Positions 3,293 to 26,612 of a DNA stretch of 46,999 nt are shown here, in pieces. The stretch is from a virus. The DNA is taken from the IMG/VR virus record IMGVR_UViG_3300028895_000256, positions 1 through 46,999 of that record; one strand, 5' to 3'. Made by a program: the position numbers and the translations under genes. Position 1 is the stretch's first letter, and every line of letters starts with the position of its first letter. The notes beneath the pieces were generated by a model. The model saw nothing but the letters and a program-made list of their open reading frames with translations, had not been told where the DNA came from and made no database searches.

Positions 3293-3723
3293 TTCCAGTC
3301 ACGGGGGTCGCTGCCGGCGAAGCGGTTGGCGTCGGCCGCGCCATCACTCAGCAGGACCGCGTTGGCGTCCATCTGATCCTCCAGGTCATCCGGCTCGAGG
3401 GGGTCGACCCCCTCGAGCTTGTATGGGTTGGCCACGATGTCGGCCAGCCTCTCGAGCGCCTGCTCCATGAGCCTGACCGCGAGCTCGTGGAGCTCGGTGG
3501 TGGCCTGGGCATACCGCGTGCTGATGAACTCCGAGGCCACGATCTTCGCTGTGATCGTTTGGATGATCGCGTGCGGCGGATCCTCGAACAGCGATGTGTT
3601 GAAGGTCGACGCGAGCTCGCCGTTGACCAGGGCCGTCGCGGCGGTGATGAGCTCGGTGAACTCCTCATCGCTGTCGGCCTGGACGGCGTACTCACGGACC
3701 TGGTCAGCGGTGCAGTATGGCAC
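3289..3723 (-). CDS. Head-tail connector, gp36-like (DUF1320)
   Basis: 144 residues, GTG start after GGAGAGTCCA. The opening MPYCTADQVREYA, a long helical region with FTELITAATALVNGELASTF and IVASEFISTRYAQATTELHE, and an acidic end follow the Mu gp36-like DUF1320 pattern (start MpY.t..dl, helix pairs, dispersed tyrosines). Such proteins sit at the portal-tail interface. The gene lies between the capsid-side gene at 3733 and the Phage_tail_S gene, its usual place. Confidence 0.75.
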   Translation of the reverse strand: MPYCTADQVREYAVQADSDEEFTELITAATALVNGELASTFNTSLFEDPPHAIIQTITAKIVASEFISTRYAQATTELHELAVRLMEQALERLADIVANPYKLEGVDPLEPDDLEDQMDANAVLLSDGAADANRFAGSDPRDWK

Positions 3724-3732
3724 TGGACTCTC

Positions 3733-4230
3733 CTACTCGTCGTCTCGCGGAGCCTTCGCGTGGCCCTTGGTGTAGACCACCTTGACCGGGCCCGAGAGGA
3801 ACCGCTCCTCCGGCGGGATGCGACCGCGTTCGCTCTCGATGAGCTCCGCGATCTTCTCGTCGGGCATCACCACCAGGCCGGTGTCCTTGTCCCAGAGCTT
3901 GTAACCGGCGCGGTCGCCGATCTCGGGAACCTCGATCAGGTCGCAGCCGGGCGGGATCTCGATGACGATCGGGTCGACGATCGGGGGCGCAGGCTCCGCG
4001 TCCTCCCGGGCGCCGCCGCCGTTGAGCGTCATCTTCAGCGGGACGTGGATCCCGGCCTTGGCTTCCTTGGGCGGATCACACTTCTCGACCAGCCGCTGCT
4101 CGATCAGCTTCTTGGCGATGCCGACCGGAATCAGGGCTGGGACTCCGGTACGCAGCACCATGGTTTCGTACGTGGGCTGCTTGACGCCGGGAAGTGTTCG
4201 GACCCACATGGTGTTTGGCTTTTCTGCCAT
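3733..4230 (-). CDS. Unknown structural-operon protein downstream of the major capsid gene
   Basis: 165 residues. I chose the ATG at 4228-4230 (MAEKPNTMW) because it follows AAAGGAGAGCC and lies beyond the regulatory cassette; the frame is open further upstream. The N-terminal half has a VRTLPGVKQPTYETMVLRTG segment, then a Gly-rich acidic linker with repeated proline and isoleucine (PIVIEIPPG), and ends in a charged helix. I do not recognise a family. Being first gene after the cassette and before the gp36-like connector suggests a head-completion or decoration role, which is inference. Confidence 0.6.
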   Translation of the reverse strand: MAEKPNTMWVRTLPGVKQPTYETMVLRTGVPALIPVGIAKKLIEQRLVEKCDPPKEAKAGIHVPLKMTLNGGGAREDAEPAPPIVDPIVIEIPPGCDLIEVPEIGDRAGYKLWDKDTGLVVMPDEKIAELIESERGRIPPEERFLSGPVKVVYTKGHAKAPRDDE

Positions 4231-5356: not shown

Positions 5357-5746
5357 CTAGCTCGTGTAGATCTTGCCGGCCAGGTCGACCGCGGCGGCGG
5401 CATCCCAACCGATGAGCTCGCTCGCGTCGACGTGCCCCTCGACCAGCAGGTCGCCCCAGTGATCGGTGGCATCGTCTTCGGGCTTGCCGTCCTTCAGGTC
5501 GACCTCGTGCATGAGGATGCCGACCGCGGTCTCGGTGCCATCGCTGGCGGTGTCGTCGTACTGCGCCAGCATGCTGCTGGCGGTGATCTCGCCCATCGTC
5601 AGGCCGGAGCGCAGGACGTGGGTATAGCCGGTGTGACCGGCATCGACGGCGGCGCCGGAGATCTTCTTCGGCAGACTCAGAAGACGTTCACGCAGCCATC
5701 CCTTGGGAGTGTCGCTGTACGTCTTCACGCCGGTGCGGTTCGCCAT
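5357..5746 (-). CDS. Head decoration protein (lambda gpD-like)
   Basis: 129 residues between scaffold and capsid genes. The features LTMGEITASSMLAQYDD, ETAVGILMHEVDL and VEGHVDASELIGWD reproduce the gpD family's sequence of a strand (l..G.vl...g..ky), an AVGILl.dvd segment and a final v.G.v..s.l.wd segment. gpD-type trimers bind the expanded capsid shell at the threefold sites and stabilise it against packaged DNA. The start is the ATG after AGGTGAGAGAAC. Confidence 0.8.
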   Translation of the reverse strand: MANRTGVKTYSDTPKGWLRERLLSLPKKISGAAVDAGHTGYTHVLRSGLTMGEITASSMLAQYDDTASDGTETAVGILMHEVDLKDGKPEDDATDHWGDLLVEGHVDASELIGWDAAAAVDLAGKIYTS

Positions 5747-16078: not shown

Positions 16079-17759
16079 CGGCATCCTCCTCTCGGTGGAC
16101 GAGCTCGGCGTGGCCCCCCGTGAAATCCTCCCAGCGCCGGACCGCGATGTCGATGAAGGCGGGGTTCCGCTCGACCGCGTAGCACCGGCGCCCCGTGAGC
16201 TCTGCGGCGATCAGGCTGGTCCCGCTCCCGCAGAAGGCGTCGAGGATGATGTGCCCTGGGCGCGTGTGCTTCATCAGGGGGAGCTCGAAGACCCGGACCG
16301 GCTTCTGGGTAGGGTGCAGCCCGGCGCTGCGGGATCGCCCTTCCCAGCCCGCCTCCCAGACGTTGGAGTACTCGCCGGCGACCGGGTTGAGCATCGGCTT
16401 GTGGCCCTTCACCCAGCCCATGGCCAGGTGCTTGGCTCGCCGCTCCCACTCGACCAGGTCATCTGGGCCTTCGATGGCCAGCAGCCCCTCGATCAGGCGC
16501 CCGATCTTCGCCTGGGTCTCGCTCCAGGGCTTACGCTCCCCGTTCTCGTTCCGACCAAGGTAGCAGGGCTCGCATCTCCAATTCCAGACGCTGAAGCCCA
16601 TCACGTGGGTCGGCTTGACCCAGGTGATCGCTTGGTGGACGCGGATCCCGGCCGCCGCGAGGGCCTCGCGGAAGACGTGGGCGGTGCTGCTGGCGTGCCA
16701 GACGTACCAGGCGGCGTTCTCGCGGGTGACGCCGGCGATGGCGTTGAAGGCGCGGACCAGGAAGTCCTTGAAGTGAGCCTGGCTCGGAAAATGATCCCAG
16801 GTTTCAGAATCCCACTCCGGCGCTGGCGGCTCGCCGGTGACTTCTGGGGTCTCGCCGCGCTCCCGGGCCTCCGCGGCGGCCTTGCGGGCGCCGGCGGCCG
16901 ACCGGGCCCAGCGCCCGAGCGCCAGGTCGGCCTGCGCATGGCAGTGCTTGCAGAGGATCTGGATGTTGCTGGGATCGTTGTTGTAGGTGTCCCCGTCGAC
17001 GTGGTGGCGGGTGAGGGTTACGCCGGGATCGGCGTTAGTGCGGTTGCACCGCTTCCCGTCGCGTATCCCCTCGCAGCTGCTGTCTGAGGTGATCGGGACG
17101 AGGCGCTGGGCCCGCTTACGGGCGCTGACCCGGCTGCAGTCGTATCCCACGCCGTAAGGGGGGTCGGTGATCACGATGTGGGCCTTCCGGCCGTCCATCA
17201 GCGCCGCGTAGGTCTCCGGGCGCAGGCTGTCCGCACAAATGAGCCGGTGGCGGCCGAGTTCCCAGATGTCCCCCAGCTTGGCTGTGGGGTCCTCGGGTGG
17301 TTCCGGCACGTCATCCTGCCCGGGCTTGGTCTTCACTGGGACCTGGCGCAGCAGCCTGCGGTTCTGAGCCTCGAGCTCCTCGAGGCGCAGGGCCTCGAAG
17401 GCTTCGGGGAGCGCCTGCTCGATCTCCGCGATCAGGTCGTGGACGTCGACGGTGAAGTGTCCGGCGAGGGCTGGGCTGTTGAGTGCGAGGTTCAGCGCCT
17501 TTTCCTCTTCGATCTCCAGGTCAACCACGACCACCGGGCTCTCGGTCTCGCCGGCCTCGATCAGGATCTCCCTCCGTTGATGGCCCCCGACGAGGTTTCC
17601 GGTGCGACGGTTCCAGACCGGGAGGTCGACCAGCCCGAAGCGCTCGAGGGAATTCTGCAGGCCGGCCCGCTCCTGATCGGTGATCCCCCTCGGATTGTAG
17701 TCGGCCGGGGTGAGGTCCTGGAGCTTCAGGATCTCGATGGTCGGCTTCTGGATTGGCAT
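16041..17759 (-). CDS. ParB-like domain fused to DNA methyltransferase with inserted HNH domain
   Basis: 572 residues. Residues about 8-135 are a ParB/Srx-like domain: NPRGITDQERAGLQNSLERF, then VGGHQRREIL (57-66). Residues about 160-550 are an amino-methyltransferase of the beta class (motif IV before motif I): GRHRLICADSL, TDPPYGVGYD (198-207), and FCGSGTSLIAAEL (509-521). Between motif IV and the next fold element lies an insertion with C229, C238, HH at 252-253, NN at 260-261 and CKHCH (270-274), the pattern of an HNH nuclease zinc fold. Expected activity is N4-cytosine or N6-adenine methylation, which could protect phage DNA from host restriction. The start follows a run of GGAGG repeats. 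Confidence 0.85.
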   Translation of the reverse strand: MPIQKPTIEILKLQDLTPADYNPRGITDQERAGLQNSLERFGLVDLPVWNRRTGNLVGGHQRREILIEAGETESPVVVVDLEIEEEKALNLALNSPALAGHFTVDVHDLIAEIEQALPEAFEALRLEELEAQNRRLLRQVPVKTKPGQDDVPEPPEDPTAKLGDIWELGRHRLICADSLRPETYAALMDGRKAHIVITDPPYGVGYDCSRVSARKRAQRLVPITSDSSCEGIRDGKRCNRTNADPGVTLTRHHVDGDTYNNDPSNIQILCKHCHAQADLALGRWARSAAGARKAAAEARERGETPEVTGEPPAPEWDSETWDHFPSQAHFKDFLVRAFNAIAGVTRENAAWYVWHASSTAHVFREALAAAGIRVHQAITWVKPTHVMGFSVWNWRCEPCYLGRNENGERKPWSETQAKIGRLIEGLLAIEGPDDLVEWERRAKHLAMGWVKGHKPMLNPVAGEYSNVWEAGWEGRSRSAGLHPTQKPVRVFELPLMKHTRPGHIILDAFCGSGTSLIAAELTGRRCYAVERNPAFIDIAVRRWEDFTGGHAELVHREEDADGSQEASDGATD

Positions 17760-17810
17760 CTCCTCCTCCTGTCAGGTGTCAGTGTCAGTTGTTGCCGTTT
17801 GGTGCTCCTC

Positions 17811-18023
17811 TTACAACCTATCTGATCTATCTAACCTATCTATGCCATAAATATGTGGGATATATCCGGGATATTTGTTCAAAGTCCGACCGTGTGTCAA
17901 TTCTTTGAGGACATCAGGAAAATCCATTAGCGCATTGTGCTTTTTCTTGCCCAGGCCGCTGATCGGGTTATCCACATACCCACCGACTGCCAGTCTGTCA
18001 GGTTTTGATCTCTGGCGCTTCAC
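17811..18023 (-). CDS. Small AT-rich gene with C-terminal DR repeats, unknown
   Basis: 70 residues, GTG start two bases after the preceding stop. Base composition is clearly lower in GC than the neighbours. The peptide is basic at the start (MKRQRSKPDRLAVGGYVDN), has a KKKHNALMDFPDVLKEL helix, and ends in the repeat DRLDRSDRL, encoded by tandem GATAG(G/A)TT(A/G)-like units. It may be a recent acquisition, or the low-GC repeat may be a DNA feature read as protein. No family recognised. Confidence 0.45.
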   Translation of the reverse strand: MKRQRSKPDRLAVGGYVDNPISGLGKKKHNALMDFPDVLKELTHGRTLNKYPGYIPHIYGIDRLDRSDRL

Positions 18024-18025
18024 GT

Positions 18026-18433
18026 CTAGTTCTTTTCCTTGCGCTCAGGGTCTTCGACCCCCATGTCGTCGAGAAGCGCCTCGAGGCGCTCGAGCTCGGC
18101 GAGGATCTGCTCCGGGGTCGGGTCGCTCGCCACCAACCGCGGGGCCTCCCCCTGCAGTTGCGCGTGCCCGTCCTTCATGTGCTGCAGCGCCTGGACGGGG
18201 ATCGCGATGTGCGTCAGATCCATGGTCTGCGCCCCGTCTTTGCTCAGGATCTTCCTGGTCTTGCTGGGCTGGAAGATCGCCAGGGGGTGGGGGGATCTTG
18301 TTTTCTTCAGGTGGTCGACCACCTGATCAGCGATCTCGACCGCCTGCTCGACCCCCGCCATGATCATCTGGCTGGCTGTGGCCTGGGGGCTCTGCTCGAG
18401 GGCTGTGTCGGTGCGGGTCGTGTCTTCGGACAT
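18026..18433 (-). CDS. Unknown acidic helical protein
   Basis: 135 residues, ATG after AAAGGAGTCACG. It starts polar and Thr-rich, then has ASQMIMAGVEQAVEIADQVV and a C-terminal leucine-rich helix (PEQILAELERLEALLDDMG) ending KEKN. It starts inside the 3' end of the upstream gene (70-base overlap). Probably cytoplasmic; no family recognised. Confidence 0.6.
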   Translation of the reverse strand: MSEDTTRTDTALEQSPQATASQMIMAGVEQAVEIADQVVDHLKKTRSPHPLAIFQPSKTRKILSKDGAQTMDLTHIAIPVQALQHMKDGHAQLQGEAPRLVASDPTPEQILAELERLEALLDDMGVEDPERKEKN

Positions 18434-22928: not shown

Positions 22929-23163
22929 GTTCTGCCTCCTGTCGGTAAATGTGCACCAAGTGCCCATCGATGTAGTCGCATTCGTCACTTCTGCGATACG
23001 TGACCTTGAGCATCTGTGCTGGGATCATGGCTCCCGGTGGCGATACGAAGAGGTACCTGCTCATCATCGTAAACCCCGGTAGGTAGATCACCCTGTGAAG
23101 GTCGGCCAGCAGGCCGTGCCTGCGCACGCCTTCGCGATCTTCGAACACGACCCGATATCTCAT
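22918..23163 (-). CDS. Unknown small protein at the edge of the pentamer array
   Basis: 81 residues starting MRYRVVFEDREG at the ATG 23161-23163. The ribosome site is poor: AAAGG is 13 bases away and the sequence before it belongs to the repeat array, so expression may depend on an RNA structure or on read-through. The peptide is strand-rich (RYRVVFEDREG, HRVIYLPG, SRYLFVSPPG, MLKVTYRRSD). No family recognised. Confidence 0.5.
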   Translation of the reverse strand: MRYRVVFEDREGVRRHGLLADLHRVIYLPGFTMMSRYLFVSPPGAMIPAQMLKVTYRRSDECDYIDGHLVHIYRQEAEHGR

Positions 23164-23749
23164 GTTGGTGGTGTACCTTTCCGCTCCTGTCACATCGTCT
23201 CCCAGCCCAGCCTCTACGGCCCGTCCCTTCCGATCTCGTCCTCGTCTCGGCCTTGCTGACCAATCCCCTGCGGCCATGCCGCTCCCATGCAGCCCTAGCC
23301 CCTGCTCACCTTTCCGGTACGGCCTGTCGACTCCAGTGCTAGCCTCTGCAATGCTCTACAGTCATGTGCGGCCCTTTCACTCCTTGACTTTGCTCTGCAC
23401 TCCACTACCTGCTGTTCCAGTACAATCGGCTGCGGCTGTTCCTCTCCCGTACACTGTGCGCCACGACTTTCCTTCCCAATCGTAACCATCCCGCTACTGC
23501 CATTCAGGTATCGTCCAGTGTCCTCCGTTCCAATGCTTGCCTCAGCAGTGGATTCCATTCCAGTACAGCCCTTCCATTTCAGGCCATGCTATAGCTATCC
23601 CATCCACTCCACTTCCATACAGCCGCTCGCTTACATGCCGGACCTGTGCAAGCCTATGCTATCCTATCTCGTCCTTTACGGCCGTCCCACTCCATTGCAC
23701 GCTCAGCCATTGCCCTACAGTCCTGTCCACTCCAGTAACCGATTGACTG
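23164..23749. repeat. Degenerate pentanucleotide array, no gene
   Basis: 586 bases without a credible gene. The minus strand can be cut into consecutive 5-mers that favour the form NNTGG (equivalently GRATG): near 23725 it reads ACTGG AGTGG ACAGG ACTGT, near 23680 AATGG AGTGG GACGG, near 23600 GGAGT GGATG GGATA, near 23560 TACTG GAATG GAATC. The phase drifts in places by one or two bases, and units are far from identical. The plus strand is correspondingly pyrimidine-rich (TCCAN). The tract separates two closely packed gene groups and has a base composition unlike either. Confidence 0.75.
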
Positions 23750-24223
23750 CTACAAGGCTGCCAAGAACTGCTCGACCGTGTCACAGGCGTCGTCGACCAT
23801 GGCTGTGTCCATCTTCAGGACCTTGCCGATCGACACTGCCCGCTGCAGACATCCGATCGCTCGCGTGAGCTCGTTGGTCATCACTTCGACCTTGAGCGCT
23901 TTGTGGCTGGCGACAACCGGCAGGTGGATGTAGCCCTCCTCATCGGATGCCCGCTCCGGGTCACGCACGTAGGCCGGTGCGATCACAGCAGCGCCCCCTC
24001 GCTGCACCTTGATCCGGACGCTACGGATCAGCTGGCGGGCCACCTGCAGGCGAGCCTTGTAGGCGGCGGCCTGATCGTCCCACTCGAAGTACCCATGGAG
24101 GGGGCTGGTCGGATCCTGAGCGTCATCGACCACGGCCGCCGGGGTCGGCCGCTGGTTCATGCGCTCGGCGATCTCGTTCAGTCGCTGCTCGACTGCTTCG
24201 CGCTGATCATCGCTGACTCTCAT
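23750..24223 (-). CDS. Conserved-looking phage protein, unknown
   Basis: 157 residues. It starts with a helical segment (DQREAVEQRLNEIAERMNQ), followed by DPTSPLHGYFEWDDQAAAYK and ARLQVARQLIRSVRIKV, a combination I associate with a family of uncharacterised phage proteins. The C-terminal half has ALKVEVMTNELTRAIGCLQR and an acidic last helix. It is translationally coupled (ATGA) to the upstream gene and has AAGGAGG. The gene ends where the pentamer array begins. Confidence 0.6.
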   Translation of the reverse strand: MRVSDDQREAVEQRLNEIAERMNQRPTPAAVVDDAQDPTSPLHGYFEWDDQAAAYKARLQVARQLIRSVRIKVQRGGAAVIAPAYVRDPERASDEEGYIHLPVVASHKALKVEVMTNELTRAIGCLQRAVSIGKVLKMDTAMVDDACDTVEQFLAAL

Positions 24224-25032
24224 GCGGCCTCCTTGTCGCCGGCCTTCGCCACAAGCCCGTCGCTGCTGTCGCCCCTGCCTCGGACCTCCCGCTCATCCTC
24301 GAACCAGCGATAGAGTTCCTCGGTCTCCGCGTCGAAAAACCGGAGATTCTCCATCTTGATCGCGTCGTCCTGGGCCTCCCGGCCGCCGGCCTTCACGATC
24401 TCCAGGTACTCCTTGTCGTCCGGCGGGACGATCTTGAACATGCCGAAGTTGCCGCCCTTCTGCCGGCGCCAGTCCCCGATCCCGTTGGTCACGCCGGCGG
24501 CCGCGACGAGGTTCACCATGCTCGCCTGGTTGAGGTTGGGCGTGAGGTAGGAGACCTTGAACTTGGTGGCCCAGCGCCGGAGCACCATGCGCGTCCGAAC
24601 GTCCGGGGTCTTCGCGATCCCGGCCTGCCGGACGATCGTCATCATCATCTCGGGGATCCCCCAGACCGGCATGAGCGTTCCCTCGACCCAGCTGAGCCGG
24701 CCGATCTCCGTCTTGGCGACGGTCGGGATATCGAGGGCCGCGCACTGGATCGCTTTGCCCATCGACTCGCACTTGAAGCCGAAGCGGGTGGGCGGGTTGT
24801 TGTCGTCGGTGAACCGGTACGGGCACTCGAGGAACTCGAGGTAGGGGTTATGCTTCATGGTCAGCTTCTTCTCGCTCCTCGACTTCGGACCGCTCGGGTA
24901 GAGCAGCTCCTGCTTGGCCTTCGAGGGCATGGCGTGGAGAATCAACTCGGAGATCCCGACGATCGCGAGCTCGATGGATTCCCACTTCATCTGATCGACC
25001 TTGACTTCCTGCGTCTTCTTCTTGCCTGGCAT
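24220..25032 (-). CDS. Unknown protein with conserved glycine-rich motif
   Basis: 270 residues, ATG after AAGGAGGCAGACC. The N-terminal region is basic, then SIELAIVGISELILHAMPSK, and FKCESMGKAIQCAALDIPT, a basic region with RTRMVLRRWATKFKVSYLT, and AGVTNGIGDWRRQKGGNFG near residue 195. The G.GDWR..K.G.FG motif recurs in a group of phage proteins of unknown role. I considered nucleic-acid-binding (RAMP/Cas7-like) folds because of the glycine-rich loop and basic surface, but cannot establish this from sequence. Confidence 0.55.
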   Translation of the reverse strand: MPGKKKTQEVKVDQMKWESIELAIVGISELILHAMPSKAKQELLYPSGPKSRSEKKLTMKHNPYLEFLECPYRFTDDNNPPTRFGFKCESMGKAIQCAALDIPTVAKTEIGRLSWVEGTLMPVWGIPEMMMTIVRQAGIAKTPDVRTRMVLRRWATKFKVSYLTPNLNQASMVNLVAAAGVTNGIGDWRRQKGGNFGMFKIVPPDDKEYLEIVKAGGREAQDDAIKMENLRFFDAETEELYRWFEDEREVRGRGDSSDGLVAKAGDKEAA

Positions 25033-25085: not shown

Positions 25086-26612
25086 TCAGCCTGCAGCGTC
25101 CTCCTCTCCTGCTGCAGGCGGGGGTGGGGTGGGCGGGGGCTCGACGGGCTGCTCGTCAGGCTCGCCGAATACTTCCCGCATGAAGATCTCCTCCTCGATG
25201 TTCCTGATCGTCGGCCGCGGCGGCGATCCGTATTCTGCTCCGATCCACCGGCGGTTGTATCGGCTGAGGCCCTCAGCCATCCCCGGAGCGAACCATGAGC
25301 CGGCCGACGCGAGCTCCGTACCGCCGCGGGCGCCGGACCAGGTCGGGCTCTCCATCGTCCCGTTAGGGTGCTCGATCTTGTAGGCGTACCAGCCCCGCTG
25401 CCGGTCAGTGACCTTGAGCCAGACTTGCCCGCGGAAGAACCGGCGATGCCAGGTGATGGTGCGGTTGCCGTCGTCATCCGTCTCGATCTCGTAGGTCGGG
25501 TCCTTGATGGGGCGGCCCAGGTTCTTCAGGTCGACTGCGGGCGTGACGAGCTCCCGTCCGTTGGGCGATCGGTAGACGCAGATCGCTCGATCGTGGAGCA
25601 GGCAGGCGGCCGCGACTGCGTACCGTTGCGTCTCGGATTCCGCGTCGTTCTCGACGAAGATGTAGGGCCCCCCTCGGTCCGTTCTGTAGGGCTTGTCTGC
25701 GATCCGGCCGAGGCTGTCTTCGTGGTCCGGATCGTTGGCGCCCAGCCAGTCGGTGGCGTTGCCAGCGCCCCAATACCAATGGGGGAAGTTCTCGATCATG
25801 ACCCCGTCCAGCTGCTTTACGAAGGGCAAGCTCTCCTTGACCGCGTCCGGCCCGTTGGCGATGACCGGCACGTCCTCGAGGGCGCGGCGCAACCTGGCGA
25901 TCAGGGTCTCCTGTCCCTGGATCCACGCGTCCCGCTCTGAGGTGTCGGGGTCGCCGTAGAAGGCACGATCATCTGCGAACGCGACCCCATCCTGATCGAT
26001 GTCCGGCAGCCCGATCTGGTTCGCGGCGTAGGCAGGGTCCTGCCAGACCTTGAAGTCCGGGATGTTGCGGGTCACGAAGTCCATCATGAAGATGGCGCCC
26101 TTGCGCTCCTGGTAGTAGGTGCCCCTGAAGGCATCCACGGCGTGCTTGATGATCGCCTGCCGGGCATCGGCCTGCGTGATGTCGACGACCGGGTCGCGCT
26201 TCCAGATGCTGACGGTGTCTGGCTGTCCGGTGGCCGGGTCGATGCCGTTGGTCCGCATCAGGAAATCCCCGTTGACCGCGACCGCCTCCCAGGACCTGGC
26301 CCGCCAGGATCTGGCGCCGGCATCGTAGCTCCGCTTCAGGTAGAGCGGGACGGCCCAGAAGTGGTGGTGGAAGACCAGGCGGTGCTCCGGGTTCCGGTCG
26401 TGGATCTCCGGCAGCATGCTGCTGGCTTCGTCGTCCATGGCGTAGTTGGCCTGGACGAAGGTGTAATCGTGCTGGGCCCAGCCAGCCGGGTTGTCTTCGA
26501 TGGTCGACCCGATGGCCATGCCGCTGGTCTGGAAGGTCGGCGGGAGGCTGGTAATCCAGAAGGCGGCGGCGATGGCGGCGACGACGGTCAGGATCTTCAG
26601 CGCGAGCTTCAT
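25086..26612 (-). CDS. Secreted glycoside-hydrolase-like protein (GHL15-type TIM barrel)
   Basis: 508 residues. Residues 1-22 form a signal peptide or membrane anchor (basic MKLALK, then a hydrophobic helix). The body resembles the uncharacterised GHL15 glycosidase-like family: LVFHHHFWAVPLYLK (80-94), AIFMMDFVTRNIPDF (173-187), an ENG-type loop with PVIANGPDAV (249-258) and LDGVMIENFPHWYWG (268-282), where D269 and E274 are candidate catalytic acids at strand ends. The last 60 residues are proline-rich and acidic (EPPPTPPPPAAG). It would act outside the cytoplasm on host glycans. It sits among early/accessory genes, not beside the tail genes, so it is not an obvious depolymerase. The start shares TGATG with the upstream stop. 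Confidence 0.55.
   Translation of the reverse strand: MKLALKILTVVAAIAAAFWITSLPPTFQTSGMAIGSTIEDNPAGWAQHDYTFVQANYAMDDEASSMLPEIHDRNPEHRLVFHHHFWAVPLYLKRSYDAGARSWRARSWEAVAVNGDFLMRTNGIDPATGQPDTVSIWKRDPVVDITQADARQAIIKHAVDAFRGTYYQERKGAIFMMDFVTRNIPDFKVWQDPAYAANQIGLPDIDQDGVAFADDRAFYGDPDTSERDAWIQGQETLIARLRRALEDVPVIANGPDAVKESLPFVKQLDGVMIENFPHWYWGAGNATDWLGANDPDHEDSLGRIADKPYRTDRGGPYIFVENDAESETQRYAVAAACLLHDRAICVYRSPNGRELVTPAVDLKNLGRPIKDPTYEIETDDDGNRTITWHRRFFRGQVWLKVTDRQRGWYAYKIEHPNGTMESPTWSGARGGTELASAGSWFAPGMAEGLSRYNRRWIGAEYGSPPRPTIRNIEEEIFMREVFGEPDEQPVEPPPTPPPPAAGEEDAAG

Follow-up and report, generated by a model that had tools for sequence, protein, structure and literature searches.

The fragment considered here is a 46,999-nucleotide (nt) stretch of viral DNA (IMG/VR record IMGVR_UViG_3300028895_000256), below called the window. 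Its positions 23,164-23,749 had been described, in an earlier note made from the sequence alone, as a degenerate pentanucleotide array without genes. This tract contains a candidate array of guide RNAs (vrRNAs) of a phage VIPR system. The array begins immediately past the stop codon of a gene encoding a protein of 157 amino acids (aa), the probable accessory gene vap, which overlaps by 4 nt with the vipr gene encoding a 270-aa protein. Both open frames are intact, and the array and the two genes share the same orientation. The next gene begins at 23,163, exactly where the array ends.

According to a bioRxiv preprint (PMC13142463, April/June 2026), a VIPR system combines an ancestral RAMP protein encoded by the phage (Vipr) with an accessory gene (vap) and with guide RNAs. 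The guides are composed of 9-16 YNNGG pentamers. Their NN dinucleotides pair with DNA, and one target base is passed over after each pair. Phages are described there as using VIPR to silence rival phages, and the Vipr protein of the phage SUSP1 was tested experimentally.

Structure of the array

The five-base rhythm reported for the minus strand is clearly present. The autocorrelation of the tract at lag 5 is 0.411, compared to 0.284 in dinucleotide-preserving shuffles (z=7.2), and a similar excess is seen at lag 15 (z=6.8). The Fourier scan produces a single sharp peak at 4.92 nt, coherent across approximately 560 nt. When the whole stretch is scanned in 300-nt windows, the power at periods 4.8-5.2 is maximal over 23,151-23,501. 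A circular hidden Markov model (HMM) with five states gains 152.5 bits over composition on the tract, whereas the gain on 60 shuffled sequences has mean 13.9, standard deviation 5.0, and maximum 36.9. The segment selected by this model is the array proper, and the limits given in the earlier note were correct within about 15 nt. No open frame runs through the tract on either strand: there are 6-10 stop codons in each minus frame and 2-4 in each plus frame. Thus the tract is indeed non-coding, and a coding repeat is ruled out.

For the parse of the minus strand, an HMM was used in which a loop of pentamers may be interrupted by a 4-nt unit, the comma. The comma emissions were seeded with YGYA after inspection; the placement of the 4-nt unit inside GGC-YGYA is therefore a matter of choice, while the contraction by one base is not. 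The pentamers have the form NN-GG-A and fall into about ten blocks of 11, 11, 10, 13, 12, 12, 9, 9, 10, and approximately 8 units. The blocks are parted by nine commas following the pattern GGC, then YGYA. Each of the eight internal guides has 9-13 units, inside the VIPR range of 9-16. The commas account for a period of 4.92 instead of 5: for instance, 11x5+4=59, and 59/12=4.92. The drifting phase described previously is thus ordered, as the 4-nt units come every 9-13 pentamers. The absence of identical units holds for long units, but single pentamers, such as GTGGA and ATGGA, do repeat.

All nine units preceding a comma end in C, compared to 18 of the 96 other units; A is the third scaffold base in 67 of these 96. 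Overall, GG is followed by A (62%) or C, a scaffold related to GGY but not strictly conforming to it.

One could suggest that the tract encodes a structured non-coding RNA, in which the fold rather than a sequence code is important. The tract is purine-rich and has a transcribed-strand bias, which speaks for this reading. However, its folding energy is no better than that of shuffles (z=-0.62), and it has no match in Rfam, which includes the hammerhead ribozymes of other VIPR arrays, either at the gathering threshold or at E up to 1. We consider this explanation extremely improbable.

Adjacent genes

The 270-aa protein belongs to phrog_4652 (E=9e-10), the family that also contains the SUSP1 Vipr (E=1.4e-96). 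The profile of the relatives of the window protein aligned with the SUSP1 Vipr at 97.9% probability (hhalign), the loop G-D-W-R...FG included. In the AlphaFold model of the protein (mean pLDDT 75), the top PDB matches found by Foldseek are all CRISPR RAMPs, namely Csm3, Cas7-11, and type VII Cas7. The best match has E=4e-4, and the TM-scores are 0.3-0.5; the predicted resemblance is at the level of the fold and is not close. At the C-terminus, the Vipr proteins of the window (24220-24420) and of one relative (locus L002, 5560-5791; loci of relatives are denoted by L and a number) are extended by about 65 aa, a stretch that other Viprs lack. The extension of L002 ends with KKKRGRPRK, an AT-hook-like motif.

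A homologue of the 157-aa gene was found by tblastn beside vipr in all relatives checked. The protein matches only uncharacterised viral proteins, and no fold match was found in PDB.

Table 1. Features of the probable VIPR locus in the window (guides and commas in 5' to 3' order on the minus strand)
Feature	Position	Strand	Basis
vipr gene, 270-aa RAMP (Cas7/Csm3-like) protein, phrog_4652	24220..25032	-	PHROG match, profile alignment, AlphaFold/PDB
probable vap (accessory) gene, 157 aa, LHGYFEWDD motif, phrog_15946	23750..24223	-	PHROG match, tblastn homologues
candidate vrRNA guide array, ~10 guides of NN-GG-A pentamers	23174..23736	-	HMM segment, parse, shuffles
guide 1, 11 units CT GT CA CT GG AT TG GT AT GT AC	23681..23735	-	parse; 5' edge uncertain
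comma CGTA	23677..23680	-	parse
guide 2, 11 units	23622..23676	-	parse
comma TGTA	23618..23621	-	parse
guide 3, 10 units	23568..23617	-	parse
comma TGTA	23564..23567	-	parse
guide 4, 13 units	23499..23563	-	parse
comma AGTA	23495..23498	-	parse
guide 5, 12 units	23435..23494	-	parse
comma CGCA	23431..23434	-	parse
guide 6, 12 units	23371..23430	-	parse
comma CGCA	23367..23370	-	parse
guide 7, 9 units	23322..23366	-	parse
comma CGTA	23318..23321	-	parse
guide 8, 9 units	23273..23317	-	parse
comma CGCA	23269..23272	-	parse
guide 9, 10 units	23219..23268	-	parse
comma CGTA	23215..23218	-	parse
guide 10, 8 clear units, runs into the start region of the next gene	23175..23214	-	parse

Arrays in related loci

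Relatives of the 157-aa protein were confirmed by tblastn in seven loci. Six of them contain an array of the same kind, always with a period of 4.9-5.0. For the 270-aa protein, relatives came from viral contigs, phage records, and bacterial genomes, each contig being counted once. Of the 92 viral or phage loci, 89 have a pentamer array next to the vipr homologue (88 loci with at least 30 bits, and L021 with 27 bits and a clear peak at 4.9), as do all 26 bacterial-genome loci. The three exceptions are L052, whose sequence ends just past the gene, L080 with a weak signal at 4.8, and L002 with a weak, degenerate array; L002 is the closest early relative. In every array-bearing locus the polarity of the array is that of the vipr strand.

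Across the loci, the guide lengths peak at 9-11 units, and the commas are mostly AGGC, AGGT, or AGTC. The units preceding commas end in C in 833 of 899 cases, compared to 5018 of 8157 other units.

Some arrays are of interest in their own right. A giant array of about 2.5 kb in a viral contig (L081:3568-6114) contains some 40 guides with commas mostly CGTC or AGTC, and its first guides are common to L078. Gene 40 as deposited for the Gordonia phage UmaThurman (hypothetical protein, coding sequence 3608-3931) sits on a pentamer array (L011:3593-3916) and very probably is not a protein. The annotated start of gene 51 of the mycobacteriophage Saal (L012:3162) falls within an array.

Candidate targets of the guides

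The decoding covered about 690 guides from the window and its relatives, for which matches were sought in 2.3 Mb of sequence with arrays masked; a second target set comprised 2.1 Mb, and both sets together about 4.4 Mb (all on both strands). When one base was skipped, exact runs of at least 8 units, up to 11, were observed for 11 guides. Five rounds of shuffling the order of units produced 1, 3, 0, 2, and 0 such guides, and 9 units were reached once. Skips of 0 and 2 yielded no run above 8 units. The single match of 12 units, at skip 3, would fit an array copy that had escaped masking, as this skip restores the pentamer. One of the 11 matches, the run of 9 units of guide 4 from the window, is circular, since the matching loci had been retrieved by that very pattern.

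A guide of L091 matches a gene of another phage in 11 of 11 units, that is, 22 of 22 bases, with approximately 1e-4 such matches expected over all guides. This gene reads as a major capsid gene. The four other strong matches in the second set repeat places already found in the first. Two guides from a single array (L076.0.1 and L076.0.2) match the same gene of L058, probably encoding the tape measure protein, at positions 5557 and 5683, 126 bp apart.

Several matches fall into vipr genes themselves, with 11 of 14, 9 of 10, and 8 of 8 units at the one-base skip. Four guides match vipr at conserved motifs: EDMVRVGM, LSLLDAGGM, the REDMV region, and the C-terminal GDFGTYKIDP. The skipped base is mostly at the wobble position both in these matches and in those of L058. 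The near-match of guide 1 of L014 to vipr genes (16 of 18) is of low complexity and not wobble-aligned in the vipr frame, and it was not counted.

Guides of L051, L103, L044, L022, and L093 decode to the most conserved vipr motifs, so that a single guide could strike many rival VIPR systems. The guide of L022 partly matches its own vipr.

The matches support the published one-base-skip code in the wider clade, without thereby showing that the window copy works.

These observations bear on the suggestion that the tract is a DNA-level element contacted by protein at five-base-pair intervals, such as a platform for origin function, partition, or recombination. It is in fact intergenic and strongly periodic. 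However, the period of 4.92 is set by the commas and is not 5.25, the polarity of the arrays always follows vipr, the hypervariable NN decode to gene targets in relatives, and the adjoining gene belongs to an RNA-guide RAMP family. Thus a DNA element is very improbable, and neither contacts at every half helical turn nor a replication or recombination region, both proposed in the earlier note, found support. A platform contacted by protein unit by unit is probable, but it would be RNA coated by a RAMP protein, not DNA. The resemblance to GGAAT satellites is superficial.

Comparison with known systems

The Escherichia phage SUSP1 carries a type II VIPR with the same general organization: a two-gene locus with a Vipr of phrog_4652, and, beside vipr on its strand, tandem pentamers in which GG is conserved and NN hypervariable, 9-16 units per guide. 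The array HMM of the window also detects the published vrRNA tracts of SUSP1. However, the tracts of SUSP1 stand apart from one another, and each consists of 11-15 GGT pentamers and ends in a tail, whereas the window has about ten continuous tail-less guides with 4-nt commas. The invariable 3' tail of each guide, characteristic of type II VIPR in SUSP1 and P. fulva, is absent, as the guides are only 4 nt apart. Given the tail-less guides and an accessory gene unrelated to the SUSP1 vap1, the window system is not of type II. It is a VIPR variant with a GGA scaffold and 4-nt punctuation, and not a new kind of system. Such arrays may already be covered by the "staggered arrays with overlapping vrRNAs" of PMC13142463, although the main text of the preprint makes no mention of 4-nt punctuation or guide turnover.

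The mycobacteriophage Saal and the Gordonia phages UmaThurman and ODay have the vipr-vap pair and comma-punctuated arrays as well. Their scaffold is GGC, the commas are AGGC, and their Viprs are 26-28% identical to that of the window.

With type III CRISPR (Csm3/Cas7) the system shares the RAMP fold of the protein and the guide carried by RNA. The difference is in the period, 6 there and 5 here, and in the gapped NN code without direct repeats and unique spacers. The tract was correctly described as not a CRISPR: Tandem Repeats Finder reports no direct repeats in it, there are no near-identical repeats between unique spacers, and no cas families were found among the neighbours scanned. Its distinction from an iteron set was also judged right.

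Functional interpretation

The combination of the pentamer and comma array, a Vipr of phrog_4652, the RAMP fold, the conserved pairing of array and gene, and the decoded targets of relatives leaves little doubt that the tract is a guide-RNA array of a phage VIPR system. Some observations weigh against this assignment. The scaffold is GGA and not GGY. The accessory genes belong to different families (phrog_15946 in the window and phrog_5926 in SUSP1), and no relation of the 157-aa protein to the SUSP1 vap1 was found. No target was found for guides 1-10 of the window in the combined target sets, including complete records of many relatives. A scan of IMG/VR with window guides 4 and 5 only revealed no credible target: guide 5 had no match, and the three nine-unit matches of guide 4 do not extend and look like chance. 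A Saal guide had no match in IMG/VR either. Finally, only 59 of 108 units retain an intact GG, a looser scaffold than in most relatives; in L003 and L004 about 0.9 or more are intact at each scaffold G position.

The loss of GG and the lack of targets would fit decay of the array, and such decay is possible: the array worked in the ancestor, whereas in this copy the scaffold would be eroding and guides would no longer be made. However, the phase and the comma geometry are kept over approximately 560 nt, C precedes every comma, and the vipr and vap frames are intact. Moreover, the scaffold is also GGA in L028 and mixed in L014-L016, so that GGA looks like a code of the lineage. Decay is thus unlikely.

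If the tract is a VIPR array, it would probably be transcribed together with vipr and vap, and the RNA would carry about ten guides of 9-13 pentamers. By analogy with SUSP1, each Vipr subunit would grip the near-constant GGA of one pentamer, leaving the variable NN exposed to the target DNA as guide information. Pairing of the dinucleotides with DNA would follow the pattern NNxNNx, in which every third target base is passed over, and the Vipr-RNA filament would silence the gene to which it binds in a rival phage or prophage. The commas after GGC mark guide boundaries and may serve as processing or register signals.

The VIPR assignment was reached independently from the raw sequence, and the decoding rule finds support in a lineage distant from the type phage. 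Well-studied mycobacteriophages and gordoniaphages probably also carry a programmable phage-against-phage system, made up of a gene without assigned function and its "empty" flank. The comparison further reveals a punctuated array architecture with rapid turnover of guides.

Turnover of guides

The Viprs of L014, L015, and L016 are about 46% identical to that of the window. The DNA of these three loci, which belong to sister phages, is 82-85% identical up to the array and 78-91% identical after it, and yet they have just 1-2 of 13-21 guides in common, at 82-96% identity and in shifted positions. In mycobacteriophages, identical guides recur while others are replaced. Guides thus change as whole blocks.

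It is conceivable, though rather doubtful, that tail-less comma-punctuated VIPR arrays are memory arrays, whose guides are gained and lost whole. As a guide is the target minus every third base plus GGN, a new one would have to arise by some unknown encoding process or by recombination from a guide pool. The turnover makes concrete the question of how a phage writes a new noncontiguous guide.

Other observations in the window

The terminase and portal relatives of the window phage are remote and scattered, and gave no host. The 508-aa gene upstream of vipr (25086-26612) has a weak match to a hypothetical glycosyl hydrolase family 15 (PF14885). A low-GC patch (17600-18200; 0.54-0.56 compared to about 0.65) with several short imperfect repeats lies downstream of a DNA methylase gene.
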